NCBI RefSeq assembly: GCF_028858725.1
Contig: NC_084767.1
Span: 17,065,895-17,129,894, forward strand
Direction of reading: 5' to 3'
Length of the DNA: 64,000 nucleotides
Source of the DNA: Colius striatus
Lineage: Eukaryota > Chordata > Aves > Coliiformes > Coliidae
A program made the translations under genes and the position numbers. The notes beneath the pieces were generated by a model that saw only the letters and a program-made list of their open reading frames with translations, was not told the origin of the DNA and searched no databases. Positions 8,050 through 48,080 of the stretch are shown here, in pieces; positions within the stretch are counted from its first letter, which is position 1, and each line of letters begins with the position of its first letter.

Positions 8050-14659
<6,610 letters not shown>

Positions 14660-24359: not shown

Positions 24360-24362
24360 TTT

Positions 24363-24413
<51 letters not shown>

Positions 24414-24459
24414 CTTTACTCTCCCTTTCTTCCGTCCTTCCTTCCTTCCTTCCTTCCTT
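24360..24459 (+). repeat. (TTTC)n then (CTTC)n microsatellites
   Basis: About 13 uninterrupted TTTC units (24360-24413) are followed after a short break by about seven CTTC units (24430-24459). It is a pure polypyrimidine strand and could adopt triplex (H-DNA) structure. Confidence 0.95.
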
Positions 24460-25000: not shown

Positions 25001-25140
25001 TTCATAGAACCATAGAATGGTAGGGGTTGGAAGGGACCTTTAGAGATCATCTAGTCCAACCCCTCCTGCAGAAGCAGGTTCACCCAGATCAGGTCACATA
25101 GGAACATGTCCAGGCTGGGTCTTGAAAACCTACCCTTGGA
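25001..25140 (-). mobile_element. CR1 LINE 3'-end fragment
   Basis: Reads on the + strand as the reverse complement of a CR1 3' end: tcatagaaccatagaatgg, then gttggaagggacctttagag, atcatctagtccaacccc and the aggtcacataggaacatgtcc region. Such 5'-truncated copies are the commonest interspersed repeat in birds. It supports an avian source. Confidence 0.9.
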
Positions 25141-28140: not shown

Positions 28141-28229
28141 TGATGGGCTTGGCAGTGTTGGGTTAGTGGTTGGACTTGATGATTTTAAAGGTTTTGCCCA
28201 ACAAAAATGATGATTCTATGATTCTATGA
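28141..28229 (+). mobile_element. CR1 LINE 3'-end fragment
   Basis: Sense-orientation CR1 tail. It carries the CR1 words gttggacttgatgatttt, aaaggttttgcccaac and the diagnostic terminal octamer repeat attctatgattctatga. Confidence 0.9.
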
Positions 28230-41207: not shown

Positions 41208-41368
41208 CTGTTCAGTGTGTCATACTGAAGGTGCAGGAGTGGCAAATATAGATTGATAAATGGGATGGTGAAACAAAAACACTCCATAAGGACCATACTG
41301 GAGTGGTGCAAAGTCTTTTTGATGTTATTCAGCAGCTCACTGAAATATTTGCCATGAATGATTTTGTG
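41208..41368 (-). pseudogene. CATSPER3: CATSPER3 relic exon: C-terminal tail
   Basis: Reads KYFSELLNNIKKTLHHSSMV then PFINLYLPLLHLQYDT, aligning with human SFSELVENFKKTLSHTDPMV and PFIDIYFSTLDYQDTT. The acceptor is ttttccacag and the donor aacag|gtcagt. One codon appears added near LQYDT, and the exon start is shorter than in human, so some coding sequence before KYFSEL is missing or diverged. Confidence 0.92.
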
Positions 41369-42395
41369 CTGTGGAAAAGAACAAGCCCAGGAAGAGAATG
41401 TTGTTAGCAAGGAGGAGGTAAGACTTGGAACCGTCATCCTGCAGACCCTTCCACAGCCTGCACATCAGTTGAGAGCTAGAAACAGGGTCATTTGTGAGCC
41501 TCATTCCCAATGCAATTTGGAGCAGACAGTGGTGCCAGGTGGTGCAGGAGGTCCTAGGCACTGATGGATTGAGGATGACTGCCCAGGGTGTCCTCAGAGC
41601 CCAAGCGGGCAGGCGGGTCCTGCAGCTATGCAGGTACTCCCATCCCTGCCTTTAGGCTTGGAACCCAAACTACTGACCCAAACTGGTCCCTTGGTCTAGT
41701 GCTCATAGCATTGATCTTCTGGCCCAAAGGTGAGCACACTCTCAACCAAGCCATCCTGAACTGATTATTTCTAAATTACATTTGCTAAAAGCAAGAATGA
41801 GCAGAAGAGTTGGGGGAAATGGGGAGTCACATTGCTCTAATCGTTTACATTTCAGTGGCAGCTTTACTGCATTTGTTTCAAGTCAGCTTTGCAAAAGCCC
41901 TTCATCAAACAGTGCACAGCCCTCCTTTGGACTCTGCAGCATGTTTCAAGCCCGTAGTAGCATTTTGGATGTCACATCAAGGGTCTGTGAGAGCACAGGA
42001 AGGAGCATAACCTCCCTCGAGCGCTCGCAGAAAGTGAGTCCAAGCCATTTCTGGACGGGGCTCTTGGCTTGACGTGACCTAAAAGGATTTCTTTTTAAAC
42101 CTCTCTTTGAAGTGAAACAAACTCAGACAAAACACATCACAACCAATTAGGAGGCTTTCTCCACCTTTATAATACTTTAACTGTTATGTGCTATCACAAT
42201 ACTTTCAGCTGGATGTGTGATGAGCCTACCAAAAAGGCACATAGGATCTACAGCCTGGATTATTATAAACATTCCTCCACTGAAAGGGGTTCATCCACAT
42301 CTTGCCCCATTAATCAGGATCTGACATTTACAGACAGTGCTGTCCACCCACAGCTGACCACAATCCACCTGCTCCAGCATGACTTGGTTGCTTAC

Positions 42396-42491
42396 CTTCT
42401 TCTTCAGCCTTTTCAGGATCTTCTGTTTCTTGGCCCAAACAGCAGCTGCCTACACTGCTTTGCAGTCCTGTTCATAACTCTGAGCCAAATC
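42396..42491 (-). pseudogene. CATSPER3: CATSPER3 relic exon: coiled coil, premature stop
   Basis: Thirty-two codons align without a gap to human CATSPER3 from the Asp that starts the exon (DSIRKFERE) to QRQQEE: bird DLAQSYEQDCKAV, stop, AAAVWAKKQKILKRLKKK. The stop TAG (42450-42452) stands where human has a Gln, so a single C-to-T change of CAG explains it. The acceptor is ttggcag and the donor aagaag|gtaagc. A CR1 fragment begins about 21 bases upstream of this acceptor. Confidence 0.9.
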
Positions 42492-42512
42492 CTGCCAATG
42501 CCAACCCACAGA

Positions 42513-42590
42513 GATTCATAGAATGGTTTGAGTTGGAAAAGACCTTAGAGATCATCTGGTGACAACCCCTTGCCATATGCAGGATGCAAG
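42513..42590 (-). mobile_element. CR1 LINE 3'-end fragment beside a CATSPER3 relic exon
   Basis: ttcatagaatggtttgagtt, ggaaaagaccttagag and atcatctggtgacaacccc are the reverse complement of a CR1 tail. In the direction of CATSPER3 transcription it ends about 21 bases before the acceptor of the coiled-coil exon, so it occupies the region where the branch point would lie. Confidence 0.88.
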
Positions 42591-43141
42591 CGAGTCCTTG
42601 AGCATCGTTCAGAGCTGGTAGGTAAGGGAGACTTGGGCTTCAAAGAAAACCCTGATCCAGCCTCAGCCCCATTCAGAATTGAGAAGTGTTAAACAGGACC
42701 ACCTCAGGGCTGGCAGCAGAATGCTGCTGTGGAGCAGACGCCTCTCACACAGGATTTTCCATATTCTCCCTGTACATCCAGCTGATACTGGCCCTGGCTC
42801 CACACAGGGGTTTGTTGCAGAAGGACCATGAGAGCAGCTCTGGGTTAAATAGAGGCAGAGCAGGTCATGGCTGAGAGGATCTGGATGCAAAGTGTGCACT
42901 CAGGGCACCTGGGGGCTGTCTGTGCCAGAGGAACGGGAGCTGGCAGCAGCTATGGAAAAACAAAGCAGCGGTGTAGAGATGGAGACCACAGGGAAAGATA
43001 CACTCTCTCTGCTCAGAGACTGGGCACTTCTGGAGGCAGCCAAGCACCACCTGTCCAAGATAGCCTGTTAGCTGGTGGTACACTCACCCCCTCACACACA
43101 TTCACCTGACCTCACACACACATGCACAGAGCTCGTGTGAC

Positions 43142-43282
43142 CTGGGCTTTGGTAATCACAACTGCAATCAACATAGTGGGAAGGATGAAGTTTCCCAGCA
43201 AGATGAACACGACTGCAAACACGTGGCTGCTCATAAACCCCTAATGATCCATCCACTGCTCTAAGTCTGTCCAACCATCAAC
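43142..43282 (-). pseudogene. CATSPER3: CATSPER3 relic exon: pore and S6, premature stop
   Basis: After the acceptor tttgcag the exon reads VDGWTDLEQWMDH, TAG stop (43241-43243), then GFMSSHVFAVVFILLGNFIL and PTMLIAVVITKAQ. Human CATSPER3 has VDGWTDLQKQLDNREF then the S6 helix RAFTIIFILLASFIFL and VGVMIMHTE. The pore aspartate of the [T]xDxW filter motif is preserved although the frame is broken. The exon ends before GTCACA, a decayed donor. Its length is 141 bases, a multiple of three. Confidence 0.94.
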
Positions 43283-43640
43283 CTGCAAATGTATTTAAGC
43301 AGACCAGAGAGCTTAGTTCCAAACCGCAGCATAACTCACAAACCATATGAAATCTTCCTCATCTTTTCATTATTTTTTTTAAAACTAAGCACAGTTTCTC
43401 TGTTCCTCAGAGTTCCAGATTCAAATCAGCCAGTACAGATCTCTCTGATATCAGCTTTAGAGATTGTCCCCTCTGAGTCTGGAATACTGGGGAGGGATTT
43501 TTTTCATATCAAAGCAATTTTTCCCAAGGACCTGGAATATGAGTTGACTGCTGAGCAGTCCATGCTCTCCCCAGTGAAGTTACAGGGAAATCAAAGGATT
43601 TCTTCAGCAGCACTCCAAAATACGCATTTTGTCATTTGAC

Positions 43641-43834
43641 TGAGACAGACTGGAAAATGCTGCTGTATTTAGGGTTGCCGAAATGAAGAGCGTAAGACAG
43701 ACCACAGTGTCTCCAGCTTTGGGATCTCTGTAGCATGCATGTCCCAAAATGACAAACGTGAACATCAGCAGGAACACCAAGGTGAGGGCAGACATCACCA
43801 GCTGCACTGTCTGGCCAAGAGTCCCTGTGAAAAC
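43641..43834 (-). pseudogene. CATSPER3: CATSPER3 relic exon: S5, frameshifted
   Basis: Acceptor ttttgcag then VFTGTLGQTV, LVMSALTLVFLLMFTFVILG and YRDPKAGD, matching human TLITAVGQTV, TVASVLLLLFLLMYIFAILG and FGSPDNGD. Downstream, a different frame matches GNLAAAFFTLFS as GNPKYSSIFQSV. The exon is 194 bases against 183 in the human-like exon, a net gain of 11 bases. The expected donor reads GTCAAA instead of a consensus. It is the longest clean helix match in the relic. Confidence 0.93.
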
Positions 43835-46800
43835 CTGCAAAAGATAAAACAAATGTGTACTCTGTAGGTGAGAAAGATCCTTGATATGGATGAAGGCTGG
43901 GAAGTGAGCTGGGGATACAGGAGGTAACAGCCCCCCTGGGCCACCTCTGAACCAGCTCCCTTGCATGCATCTGCAGAGTTGTACTGGCAATTGAGGAGAG
44001 GGATGGGGAAACCAGCATGATGCATGGGAGCATGGCATAATTCAGAGGCTGTGGCCGTGCATCAGTCCTTTGGACTGTGAAATGGCCCCTGTAGGTCTCA
44101 GTGTTGAGAGTGTGCTGAACAGTGGCAAGACTCAGTGCTGCTTGGTCCCAGAAACATCACATCTAGCACAGAGGGACTTCTCCCTGCATTCTGAAACATG
44201 GACAGGTTACTAACCAAGTAGTGGGTTCCTGTTGATAAAGGACACAGCTGTTCCCAAGCTTCTGCATCCATCAATTAGCTGAATAAAAATGACCAGTGCT
44301 GTTAAGCCTCGTGCCTTTGGGTCTGAGCACAAACTGGATGTAAAACAATTTCTCTGCTGCCCTCACTGTCTGACTGCTCCTTCCCTGCCATGCAGGATGG
44401 GCCAGGATGGGAGATAGGAGGCCACAGTCATCTGTCATTACCCCATGGCCGCTGAGCTTGGGGAAGGCCTGTGCAAAGCCAGGTGACCAGGAAGGGATAC
44501 GATACTGCTTCTGAGACTGTCTCACTTCTTATAGAGACCCACATATGACACCAAACAAAAGACACTCCTGGGAGTTGATGGGAGTGCTGGTTTGGTCAAC
44601 TGAGCTTACTATTGGTCATGACTTTCAGACAAATGCAAAGGTTCCCATTGACTGCAAATCACAGACAACTCCATGCAGCCTCATGGATCCGCGTTACATC
44701 ACCCTGGGGAGCAGCAGCAGCACAGACTGGCCACTCCCCCACTAACCCTGTGCCTGCTAGTGCTAAGAGGTTCTTAGACAGTGCACCATCATCTCTGGCT
44801 GTCAACACCTCTGTCTGTCAACATCTCCCTCAGCTTGTTCAGATGGGTGAAAGGCTCCTGGAAGAACCAGTGGAGGGTTTTCCTGTCTCCCTGCACACGT
44901 AGCTGTCTTGGACAGGCACAGCCCAGGACTAGCAGAGGAACAAAAGCCATTCAACCCCCAAAATCAGGTCACATTTTTGCCAAGTTGTGTCATGGTATTG
45001 GGCAAGTTTGGGCTGTGGTACGTGGTCATAAAGAAAACCAGCCACCCAAAGCTGGGGGTGACTGGAGAGCCGTAAAATAGTTGCAGCAGCTGCAGGCTGG
45101 CGAGTGCCTCCCGTGTAGGACCATCATCTCACTTTGGTTGCCAAAGCTGCTCGGGCTGCTCCAGGAACTGCCATGGAGTCCTCTGAGCCCTTATTAAGAA
45201 GGAGCTTTGTGGTTCACAGTCTGCACAGTTAGTTAACTACATTGGAATTAATCCCAAATATATATTTTTTTAAAGGCAGAAAACTCGATTTTTTCCTTTT
45301 TCTTTCTGGGTATTTTTTGATGTTGTTTTTTTTTGTTTTTTACAGAACAACCTGGCATTTTTAAAGTTTATTTTGAAATTGAAATAAGGATGAATGGGGC
45401 CTAAACTAAAGCAGTGATTGCAGCTAACAGAACGTCTCTGTATGGAATACAACAAGGAAATTATTTCCTCAAGGTGGAAATTTATTGCTCCAAGGTGGAA
45501 GGCAGAGTGTTTTAAAGAGGTTTTTAATTAATAAAGGGAAACGTGCCAAGAATGTGTTGCATGTTTGAGCTTTCTGCATTAAATATTGCTAACCTGTTGA
45601 GGGCTAATTTAGGCTTCAATTAATAAATTACAATACACACAGAGGCATAAACAGCCTCCTGCACCTTCAGCAAAATGCATTTAGACAAGCCCATCACATT
45701 TTAAAACACTTTTTAGGCAAAGAGGTGTTGCTTCATAGGATGCCAAGTGGCTCAGAGCACTTGTTTCTTCAGGTCAGGATGCAAAGGCAAGTACCCAGTG
45801 TCCCTGGAGCTGGAAGGTAGTGGCGCAGCAGAGCTTTGCAGGATATTTATAGCATCCCTGGAACAGGAAGAGTCTGGGAGAGCCTAAAGAATTTTCCTCT
45901 TTGGTATTTTTTTCCCCTCGTAATGCCATTCTAGGCATTCTCACCCAAAGCCAGGTTGCAATTTCCCAATGGCCCTAGTCCCTTAAGTCTCACTGGGTGT
46001 TGCATAGCCCAGATTTTCAAAGGCATTAGGGCTCTTAAACTTGCAGATTTGTGCTGAGTGGGATTTTTTTTCAAAGCACATCAGCATTTTTAAGTGTCTC
46101 GGGGGGAAACGGTGCCAAATCTTATCCTACAGGTTTTCTTCTTTGTGGTCCCCAGATGAGGCATCTCCCAGCAGTGAGTTACACAAGTGCATAGCAGGAG
46201 GCTCAAATCAACAAACACACACCCACCCTGACTTAAGTGTCTCCCCATTTTGCCAGCCAGCAATTTGCTCTCTTACAATCAGCCAGACCAGAGCATCTGA
46301 TGCCCCATGCTTAAACCATTAATTATTTCATGCACTTCAATATGTCTTCCCTTCTCCCAGCGACGCAGAATAATTAACACATAAAAGTCTGGTGATAAGT
46401 GAAGTTTACGATTCAAACTAGAGGAATGAAGGCTCAGAAGTGAACATTATAAGCACCCTGTGCTCATAAACATCCCACTTCTGGTGGGCTACCCAGCCAA
46501 TTAATTACACACAGAAATTCTGGCTGAGCATTCATTGCCCACATAAGCTCCTTGCTGAAAAACAAACCTCCAGAGTTGTCAGGAGAAAACTAAGTAGGAG
46601 ATGGTGTGCTGGAGAGAAAAATACACACAGACCAAGAATAGGATGTGACCTATGTTTTATAGGTTTGTGGGTTTTTTTGGTGTCTGCTCTGCTGTAGTAA
46701 AAAAAGAAAATCTCTCATCAGGGAAGAAGAAATAGGGGAATTAACCAATGGTCAAGCCTTGGGCACCTTAAAAAGATCAGGAATCAATAGTTTTGATTTG

Positions 46801-46939
46801 TAGTTCGTGAGCTACCACAAGCATCAGCCCTTCTTGAGCCATAAGGCCCCCAACACCTGAGTACAGCAGAGCCTCACCCTGCTCCTGGGCTTGAGATCCC
46901 CCCTCTCTGTTGGGATTTAACCAGTGAGCAGTGCCTCAC
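43835..46939. other. CATSPER3 relic intron between S4 and S5 exons
   Basis: About 3.1 kb without recognised exon. A stretch at 45985-46100 (cagattttcaaaggcattag ... gtgggattttttttcaaagc) resembles old GATTTTCAAAG MITEs. AT-rich repeat-free blocks at about 45460-45720 (ttttaattaataaaggg, cttcaattaataaattac) and 46320-46560 (ttaattatttcatgcac, ccaattaattacacac) are rich in AATTAA cores and could be enhancers kept inside the dead gene. Confidence 0.45.
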
Positions 46940-47163
46940 TCTTGTTCTGCTGCTGTGCCTGAGAAGATCAAGGATGAGGAAGGTCTGGAGACCTTTGGCC
47001 ATTCCCTCCAGGGGAGTGTGCACAGTGGTGGCCATAGGCATGGTGTGAGGGAGGAAGTCAACAAGGAGGATGATCCAAGATGTTGCAGCTGCTTTTGTAG
47101 TAAGCAATGGGATCTACATGCAGCTTCAGCAAAATCTCAGCGGTGTAAACAGTGAGGAAGCAT
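46940..47163 (-). pseudogene. CATSPER3: CATSPER3 relic exon: S2-S3-S4, frameshifted
   Basis: Reads FLTVYTAEILLKLHVDPIAY, KSSCNILD, aligning with human FFVSICTSELSMKVYVDPIN and the NLLD before S3. After the Asp codon ending at 47073 the frame shifts. The continuation ILLVDFLPHT ... GLQTFLILDLLRHSSRTR matches human IIIVMFLPYA ... GMQSLRILKLIGYSQGIR. Exon length is 224 against 229 in the human-like exon, a net 5-base loss. The donor acaaga|gtgagg and acceptor gtcacag are plausible. The few positive S4 charges of the human protein are largely lost (LQTFLILDLL). Confidence 0.92.
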
Positions 47164-47906
47164 CTGTGACCTGGAGAGAGGAGGAGGTGACACTGGACAG
47201 CTGCCTGTCCTTGACAAACTTCATGCATCAATACAGCACTGTCATATTAAACATCCCCAACTATGTCTTTCTACCCACAGGGATCATTTCAAACGGGAGC
47301 TGAGCTCATCCCTCAGCAGTCACCATCCCATGGGTCACTGCCCAGCGTGGGAGGTCCTGCTGCATCCCAACACAGCATGCAACCCATCAGCCCCTCAGAG
47401 CTGGGCACGTGCTGCTTTCTTCCCTGCACAGAGTCTGGTCCTGCAGCCAGAGCTCTTGGAAACCTCTGACGCCCGTGACTGGGTTTCTTGACATTAGCCA
47501 GGCCTGGCTATATATTACTGGGATATATAATTAAGGCTCAGAGGTTTGCATACAGTAGCTGGCTTGTGTAAGACAAGGAAATCAAGGAGTGTGACCAAGA
47601 GGGATTTTTCAACGTGAAAATTGAGTACTAAAAGGGTGCTTAAACCAGCTGTGCTAAAACCATGAGAGGGAAAGGGCTGCTGTAGAAAGGACGGAACAAT
47701 CGCATTTGAAGAACGATAATTATCAAATAAGTGAAGGGATCTGAAGCCGAAATCCATTTTATCCAGGCCCTGTGCTAGTGCAGGCACTGGTGCAGGGCAG
47801 GACAGAGGGCTGGCAGCCAGCCCGAGCGGCGGTGGGGGCTGGACTCCCATCCCCTCCATCCCTCCCCTCCTGGCCATGGCACGTGGGAGCTGCCACTGCA
47901 GCTCAC

Positions 47907-48080
47907 CTTGAAAAGGCACCCCAGGATGAGCAGTGGTGGCCATTGATCTCCACAGGCAGGGAGATGGTGATGATGGAGATGATGCAGATAGTAAGCTTGA
48001 TGACTTTGTGGCTGCCCAGCAGCCCAGGCAGGGAGGCACCAAACTCAGCATCCCTTCTCTTTTCAGAAACAGTGGCAGAG
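47907..48080 (-). pseudogene. CATSPER3: CATSPER3 relic exon: cytosolic N-terminus and S1
   Basis: Reads EKRRDAEFGA then HKVIKLTICIISIITISL and ends WGAFS with donor tcaag|gtgagc. This aligns with human FKRNDDECRAF, the S1 helix SRFFKIIMISTVTSN, and the LLEFSE end of the exon, with about four residues missing. The candidate acceptor is ctccctcag at 48081-48082. The frame is open throughout. The weakest of the six matches by sequence alone, but its donor phase (two bases of a split Arg codon) fits the next exon exactly. Confidence 0.7.

Follow-up and report, generated by a model that had tools for sequence, protein, structure and literature searches.

A probable unitary pseudogene of CATSPER3 between PCBD2 and PITX1 in a bird genome

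Degenerate fragments of CatSper3, a subunit of the sperm calcium channel CatSper, were described in chicken and zebra finch by Cai and Clapham (2008, PMC2572835), who also compared synteny between human and chicken. A later account places the zebra finch fragments at chr13_random:2493868-2500983, a span of ~7.1 kb, and gives the same pattern for chicken (Friedrich 2019, PMC6679542). In that account, no trace of CATSPER1, CATSPER4 or CATSPERG is reported in zebra finch or chicken, and these losses are placed in the Neognathae, with ratites having the genes. Among birds, CATSPERB was found only in a ratite (Lovell 2014). CatSper is kept in kiwi and tinamou, and ostrich has three of the four alpha subunits (Romero and Nishigaki 2019, PMC6660944). 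Here we describe, exon by exon, a decayed CATSPER3 locus in a 64-kb window of a bird genome of 1.21 Gb in 191 contigs. The window is the whole stretch of DNA analysed, positions 17065895-17129894 of contig C11, and coordinates below are counted within it.

The published cases are the closest parallels to this locus. As in chicken and zebra finch, the remains belong to the same gene and resemble human CatSper3, and the synteny is conserved as it is in chicken (PMC2572835). Whereas that paper describes short stretches, the present locus has five exons with their junctions, a probable sixth and a list of lesions. Exons B-G here cover 7.2 kb, against ~7.1 kb for the zebra finch fragments; that account lists fragments, and exon-level lesions are read for the present relic (PMC6679542). 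The avian Ant4 (SLC25A31) pseudogene is a further parallel, since it is likewise a germ-cell gene reduced to a degenerate fragment at the syntenic place, and its authors note the likeness to CatSper; the gene itself is not the same, and codon models served to date its decay, whereas the age estimate for the CATSPER3 relic comes from lesion counts (PMC3155547). An earlier reading of this DNA, made from the letters alone and called the sequence-only reading below, held that CatSper is absent from birds, which is too strong given kiwi, tinamou and ostrich (PMC6660944), and left undecided whether the relic had been described, although the chicken syntenic position and a zebra finch fragment have been in print since 2008 (PMC2572835). 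The avian CATSPER3 relic is thus already known in kind, and the present work is a finer-grained repeat of the 2008 finding. We found no exon-level account of it in the literature, a search that left aside the figure and supplementary table of PMC2572835.

We consider the locus to be an unprocessed unitary pseudogene, that is, the ancestral CATSPER3 in its original place, inactivated and decaying, with a probability of about 0.95. It is read as a pseudogene because exon order, introns and splice remnants are retained together with stops, a frameshift, a gap in the pore region and a lost donor. It is read as probably unitary because none of the matches elsewhere in the genome, judged from the result table, could be identified as CatSper3.

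The exons were detected with residues 26-395 of mouse CatSper3 in a tblastn search of the window, with composition correction and masking off. The best six rows are pieces of a single collinear series on the minus strand: an S2-S4 piece split over two adjacent frames at 47159-46940 (E=3.7e-7), an S5 piece at ~43.8 kb (E=6.6e-7), a pore/S6 piece at 43282-43154 (E=1.7e-7), a C-terminal piece at 41344-41225 (E=0.003) and a coiled piece at 42500-42342 whose E-value of 0.12 is not significant by itself. The best E-value was 0.068 in 20 shuffled windows and 0.32 in the reversed window. The same protein was then aligned to 38-52 kb of the window with a purpose-written spliced and frameshift-tolerant aligner, whose low intron cost produces artefactual small extra introns in loose alignments. 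The minus strand scored 282 and the plus strand 37, while the reversed strands scored 42 and 40, dinucleotide shuffles reached at most 54 in 100, and three other 14-kb stretches (within 1-38000) gave 36-47 on both strands. A human CatSper3 query scored 304 against a maximum of 54 in 40 shuffles. Five collinear exons (B-F) of the six that had been claimed are upheld by these scores; the sixth, a block at 47904-48061, is not.

Comparison with other channels points to CatSper3 specifically. When the transmembrane part was aligned to the same DNA, CatSper3 scored 235 (at most 51 in 30 shuffles), CatSper4 64 (at most 58 in 30) and Cav3.2 domain II 52 (at most 54 in 30); the channels set directly against CatSper3 were CatSper4 and Cav3.2 domain II. 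Among the channels so compared, the blocks align best to CatSper3; failure to do so is what the sequence-only reading had named as fatal to it. Four relic pieces were also compared by phmmer with 177,635 distinct PDB sequences. The exon C (S5) piece matches CatSper3 chains alone (E=1.6e-4 and 4.5e-4), as does the exon F (C-terminal) piece (E=0.017). Among the best 60 of 72 PDB matches for the S2 piece, the first half of exon B, CatSper3 leads with E=3.7e-5, and its E-value is over a thousandfold lower than the 0.11 of the family ranked second. In Pfam, the C-terminal piece has a sub-threshold GPCR match. As judged from best match among the channels compared and from position between PCBD2 and PITX1, blocks B-F appear to be CATSPER3 by descent.

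All relic exons lie on the minus strand. Exon B (47170-46940) corresponds to S2 to S4 and to mouse residues ~87-164; both of its splice sites are canonical, the acceptor having been placed by eye, and 16 of 29 residues before a frameshift are identical. Exon C (43834-43673) covers S5 and the pore-helix region (mouse 165-225), with 24 of 54 residues identical to mouse. Exon D (43282-43142) carries the selectivity filter VDGWTDL and S6 (mouse 226-272; 20/47 identical to mouse), and the sequence ATVDGWTDL is unchanged across the C/D junction. Exon E (42491-42396) encodes a cytoplasmic coiled segment (mouse 273-304; 10/32 identical) and ends in a donor, AAG|GTAAGC, set by eye. Exon F (41368-41208) belongs to the C-terminal domain (mouse ~311-364), with 13 of 40 residues identical in the aligned part, an acceptor set by eye and a phase 2 donor, AG|GTCAGT. 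None of 300 local shuffles scored as high as exon E (spliced score 42), and none of 300 as high as exon F (69). Junctions B/C, C/D and D/E are all in phase 0 and fall at mouse 164|165, 225|226 and 272|273 with neither gap nor overlap, the intron positions being judged by internal continuity with the mouse residues. Nine of the ten splice dinucleotides bounding exons B-F are canonical, a count in which seven of the ten sites were picked by an aligner that favours canonical ones, the B and F acceptors and the E donor having been placed by eye where homology stops. The retention of introns proposed earlier is supported by the spliced alignment, the phase-0 junctions and the splice-site remnants.

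The damage is of several kinds. Two in-frame stops, as proposed in the sequence-only reading, are present as TAG codons at 43243-43241 (exon D) and 42452-42450 (exon E) on the minus strand. Of the two frameshifts proposed with them, one is found in exon B near 47072; the second occurs only inside the unsupported block at 47904-48061. The pore region of exon C carries an in-frame gap of 21 bases, called a deletion against mouse and human CatSper3 only. The donor after exon C is lost, reading ACC|CTAAAT with CT in place of GT. With mouse and human queries and a donor-anchored scan, no N-terminal CATSPER3 exon or start was recognised upstream of exon B. Between the two stops, the frameshift, the gap, the lost donor and the unrecognised N-terminal exons, no frame stays open through all six transmembrane segments and the pore. 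The lost donor, the 21-base gap and a probable exon G are additions to the earlier list.

Exon G lies on the minus strand at 40026-39936, its 3' end approximate, outside the bounds set earlier, and by sequence and splice phase it is probably the last coding exon of the CATSPER3 relic. Its phase-2 acceptor fits the phase-2 donor of exon F, and it reads RLQHRYYKHTGIL against human KLQELYYEIVHVL, the start being RLQHRYY... where human has KLQELYY.... Whether mouse or human is the query, its acceptor ranks first of the 362 AG sites that the minus strand has from 36.0 to 41.2 kb; over both strands of the window it ranks first of 9204 with the human query and fourth (tied) of 9204 with mouse. This anchored rank is no clean prior prediction, because the candidate had been seen earlier in the full alignment. 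Unanchored matches to the C-terminal part fall inside the null (272/300 and 136/300 shuffles), and so does exon G itself with the human query, its unanchored score being reached by 101 of 200 shuffles.

The block at 47904-48061, which the sequence-only reading had taken for an S1 exon, is a hydrophobic open stretch on the minus strand with a good donor, AAG|GTGAGC. As an S1 exon it is unsupported and set aside, as its score is reached in 38 of 300 shuffles when the whole 5.3 kb upstream is searched, the human query passes it over and the donor has no support in the anchored scan; only a search confined to 1.3 kb made it stand out (2/300 shuffles as high). It may be what is left of an N-terminal exon, or it may be chance. 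A weak N-terminal match to the human query at 51786-51664 was likewise set aside as within the null (38/200 shuffles).

The rest of the genome was searched with mouse CatSper3, a search that scores best candidates only and whose matches were judged from the result table. It returned 23 matches at E<=1, three of which are relic exons D, C and B, at 43%, 42% and 53% identity. The nine top matches lie at other loci in long open frames at 35-38% identity, and these we infer to be exons of voltage-gated sodium/calcium channels. None of the 20 non-relic matches at E<=1 across the whole genome, judged from the table only, was identified as a CatSper3 copy. The exon B peptide matches the genome once, at itself. 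With CatSper4 as query there were 11 matches, none stronger than E=0.10; one of them, at 23% identity, contains four stops. CATSPERB gave two weak matches under the cut-off, one with a stop; that match, C8:23707132-23707284 with an in-frame TAA (18.4 bits, E=0.54), could be a CATSPERB relic resembling the published chicken one. CATSPERD gave no match in the genome, with a search that was equally silent in control genomes. Pairs of channel-exon matches with equal scores occur on two contigs, at C39:41384986-41389475 and C40:915555-920055; they might reflect a single channel gene present on both Z and W, or a duplication made in assembly. Contigs of prokaryotic genomes were scanned for stray vertebrate DNA, using mouse CatSper3 from its C-terminal part, and yielded no relative among 58 pattern matches.

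In the window, the CATSPER3 relic is located by tblastn between PCBD2 and PITX1, on the same minus strand as PCBD2. The final two coding exons of PCBD2 are at 54900-54817 and 53354-53259 on that strand (PCBD2 query, E=1.2e-14 and 9.7e-11). PITX1 occupies 8309-14650 on the plus strand, with coding blocks at 8309-8509, 11372-11581 and 14120-14650 (tblastn, PITX1 query). The strand orientations of the three human genes, with which the window was compared, are presumed. A gene list for human 5q31 gives the order PCBD2, CATSPER3, PITX1, as in the window (PMC2222245, Table 1), so the human gene order proposed earlier holds with both tblastn flanks in place.

Several observations weigh against reading the locus as a decayed, in-place CATSPER3. 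Exons E and F are absent from the whole-genome matches, and 11 further non-relic matches, including one on contig C23 (E=0.2, internal stop), were judged from the table only. Approximately six mouse residues are unplaced between exons E and F, which makes that junction less certain. The 31-aa S6 piece (exon D) on its own had no PDB match by phmmer, and Pfam recognises Ion_trans, below threshold, in just two of five pieces (exons B and D). The damage is also light, with two stops in 262 codons and nine of ten splice sites kept, which makes a loss of great age in a rapidly evolving lineage a poor fit.

How old the loss might be is approached through these counts. Two stops in 262 codons give a maximum-likelihood estimate of 0.095 substitutions per site since loss (95% interval 0.012-0.344); the probability of at most two stops is 0.03-0.07 at 0.3 substitutions per site and 0.57-0.69 at 0.1. 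Nine intact splice sites of ten fit 0.05-0.2, the probability of at least nine being 0.435 at 0.1 but 0.108 at 0.2. Under an assumed indel:substitution ratio of 0.05-0.1, the three indels point to 0.1 or less (probability of at most three <=0.045 at 0.2). Comparison with the neognath stem draws on general background values for avian rates and ages. The lesion load is compatible with an early-neognath loss in a slow lineage and leans, if anything, younger.

The alternative that survives best is a separate and younger inactivation of CATSPER3 within this lineage rather than in the neognath common ancestor. The stop-count estimate, the surviving splice sites and the indel count (under the assumed ratios) all lean that way. 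However, the stop interval includes the neognath-stem expectation at ordinary avian rates, which from background values is ~0.1-0.2; moreover, recognition favours well-preserved exons, and the indel ratio is an assumption. Degenerate fragments are present in both chicken and zebra finch, which represent two deep branches of the Neognathae. We regard the younger loss as unlikely, and keep its odds low because the exons recognised are biased towards the better preserved. It is also rather improbable that CATSPER3 died after the neognath ancestor with CatSper being lost several times in birds, a different subunit breaking first each time.

A second alternative is co-option of the remains, either as a non-coding RNA or to regulate PITX1 or PCBD2, which would slow their decay. 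The exons are indeed well preserved for a dead gene, an indirect point in its favour, but it is the coding and splice structure that persists, as residual ancestry would predict, and no Rfam match was found in the window at gathering thresholds. Co-option is very unlikely, and residual function is unnecessary to explain the observations.

It is still less credible that a functional, diverged or truncated CatSper3 is made, or that the lesions are sequencing errors. The filter ATVDGWTDL is intact and most splice sites are canonical, but several kinds of damage would have to be explained away together (the lost donor, the pore gap, the frameshift and the two stops), the S4 stretch has changed from mouse SLRILKLI to TFLILDLL, no N-terminal exon or start was recognised, and the genome has no CatSper4 match better than E=0.1. 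That the blocks stem from a different voltage-gated channel, be it a domain of a Cav or Nav protein or one of CatSper1, 2 and 4, has a next to negligible chance, since the weak Ion_trans matches of the exon B and D pieces and a CatSper4 score just above its own null maximum (64 against 58) are outweighed by the CatSper3 score of 235 in the same test, which covered CatSper4 and Cav3.2 domain II, by the PDB-wide searches, by the CatSper3 matches of C-terminal exons E and F, and by a position that corresponds to CATSPER3 in human 5q31.

For the unitary pseudogene, a plausible course would begin with the loss of an obligate CatSper subunit in the ancestry of this bird, the likeliest point being early in the Neognathae. 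Selection on CATSPER3 would then have ended, and substitutions and small indels would have built up. The decay of CATSPER3 may thus be a mere consequence of the loss of a partner. Since ostrich has three of the four alpha subunits, the CATSPER3 relic alone is no proof that this bird is a neognath. The earlier proposal that the loss was by decay in situ and not by deletion holds for exons B-F, and probably G, of CATSPER3; it does not extend to the N-terminal exons, which were unrecognised. Nor does it extend to the channel, given CATSPER1, CATSPER4 and CATSPERG, traceless in zebra finch and chicken in the account of PMC6679542, and decay rather than deletion as the cause of channel loss exceeds the evidence of one gene.

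Readable exons with scorable lesions can help to time the loss of CatSper and to find the subunit that failed first. When and in which order the subunits were lost matters for a hypothesis under current discussion, since hot internal testes were connected in a 2025 paper with the lack of CatSper in birds (PMC12006431). The two stops, the frameshift, the lost donor, the 21-base gap and the six exon positions make up a marker set for scoring other birds.

Among other features of the window, Rfam, tRNA and Pfam scans gave no decisive result. Three fragments resemble the 3' end of avian CR1, one at 42509-42583 in the intron between exons D and E of the relic and two at 25003-25069 and 28144-28228. 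These CR1-like repeats, the genome size and the relic itself point to a bird. A pure TTTC array at 24361-24413 is followed by a CCTT-type repeat at 24424-24459. PITX1 lies mid-way along contig C11, which is 35.25 Mb long, the window being at 17.07-17.13 Mb. In chicken, PITX1 lies on chromosome 13, of ~19 Mb, and the presence of the gene on a 35-Mb contig hints at a fused chromosome.

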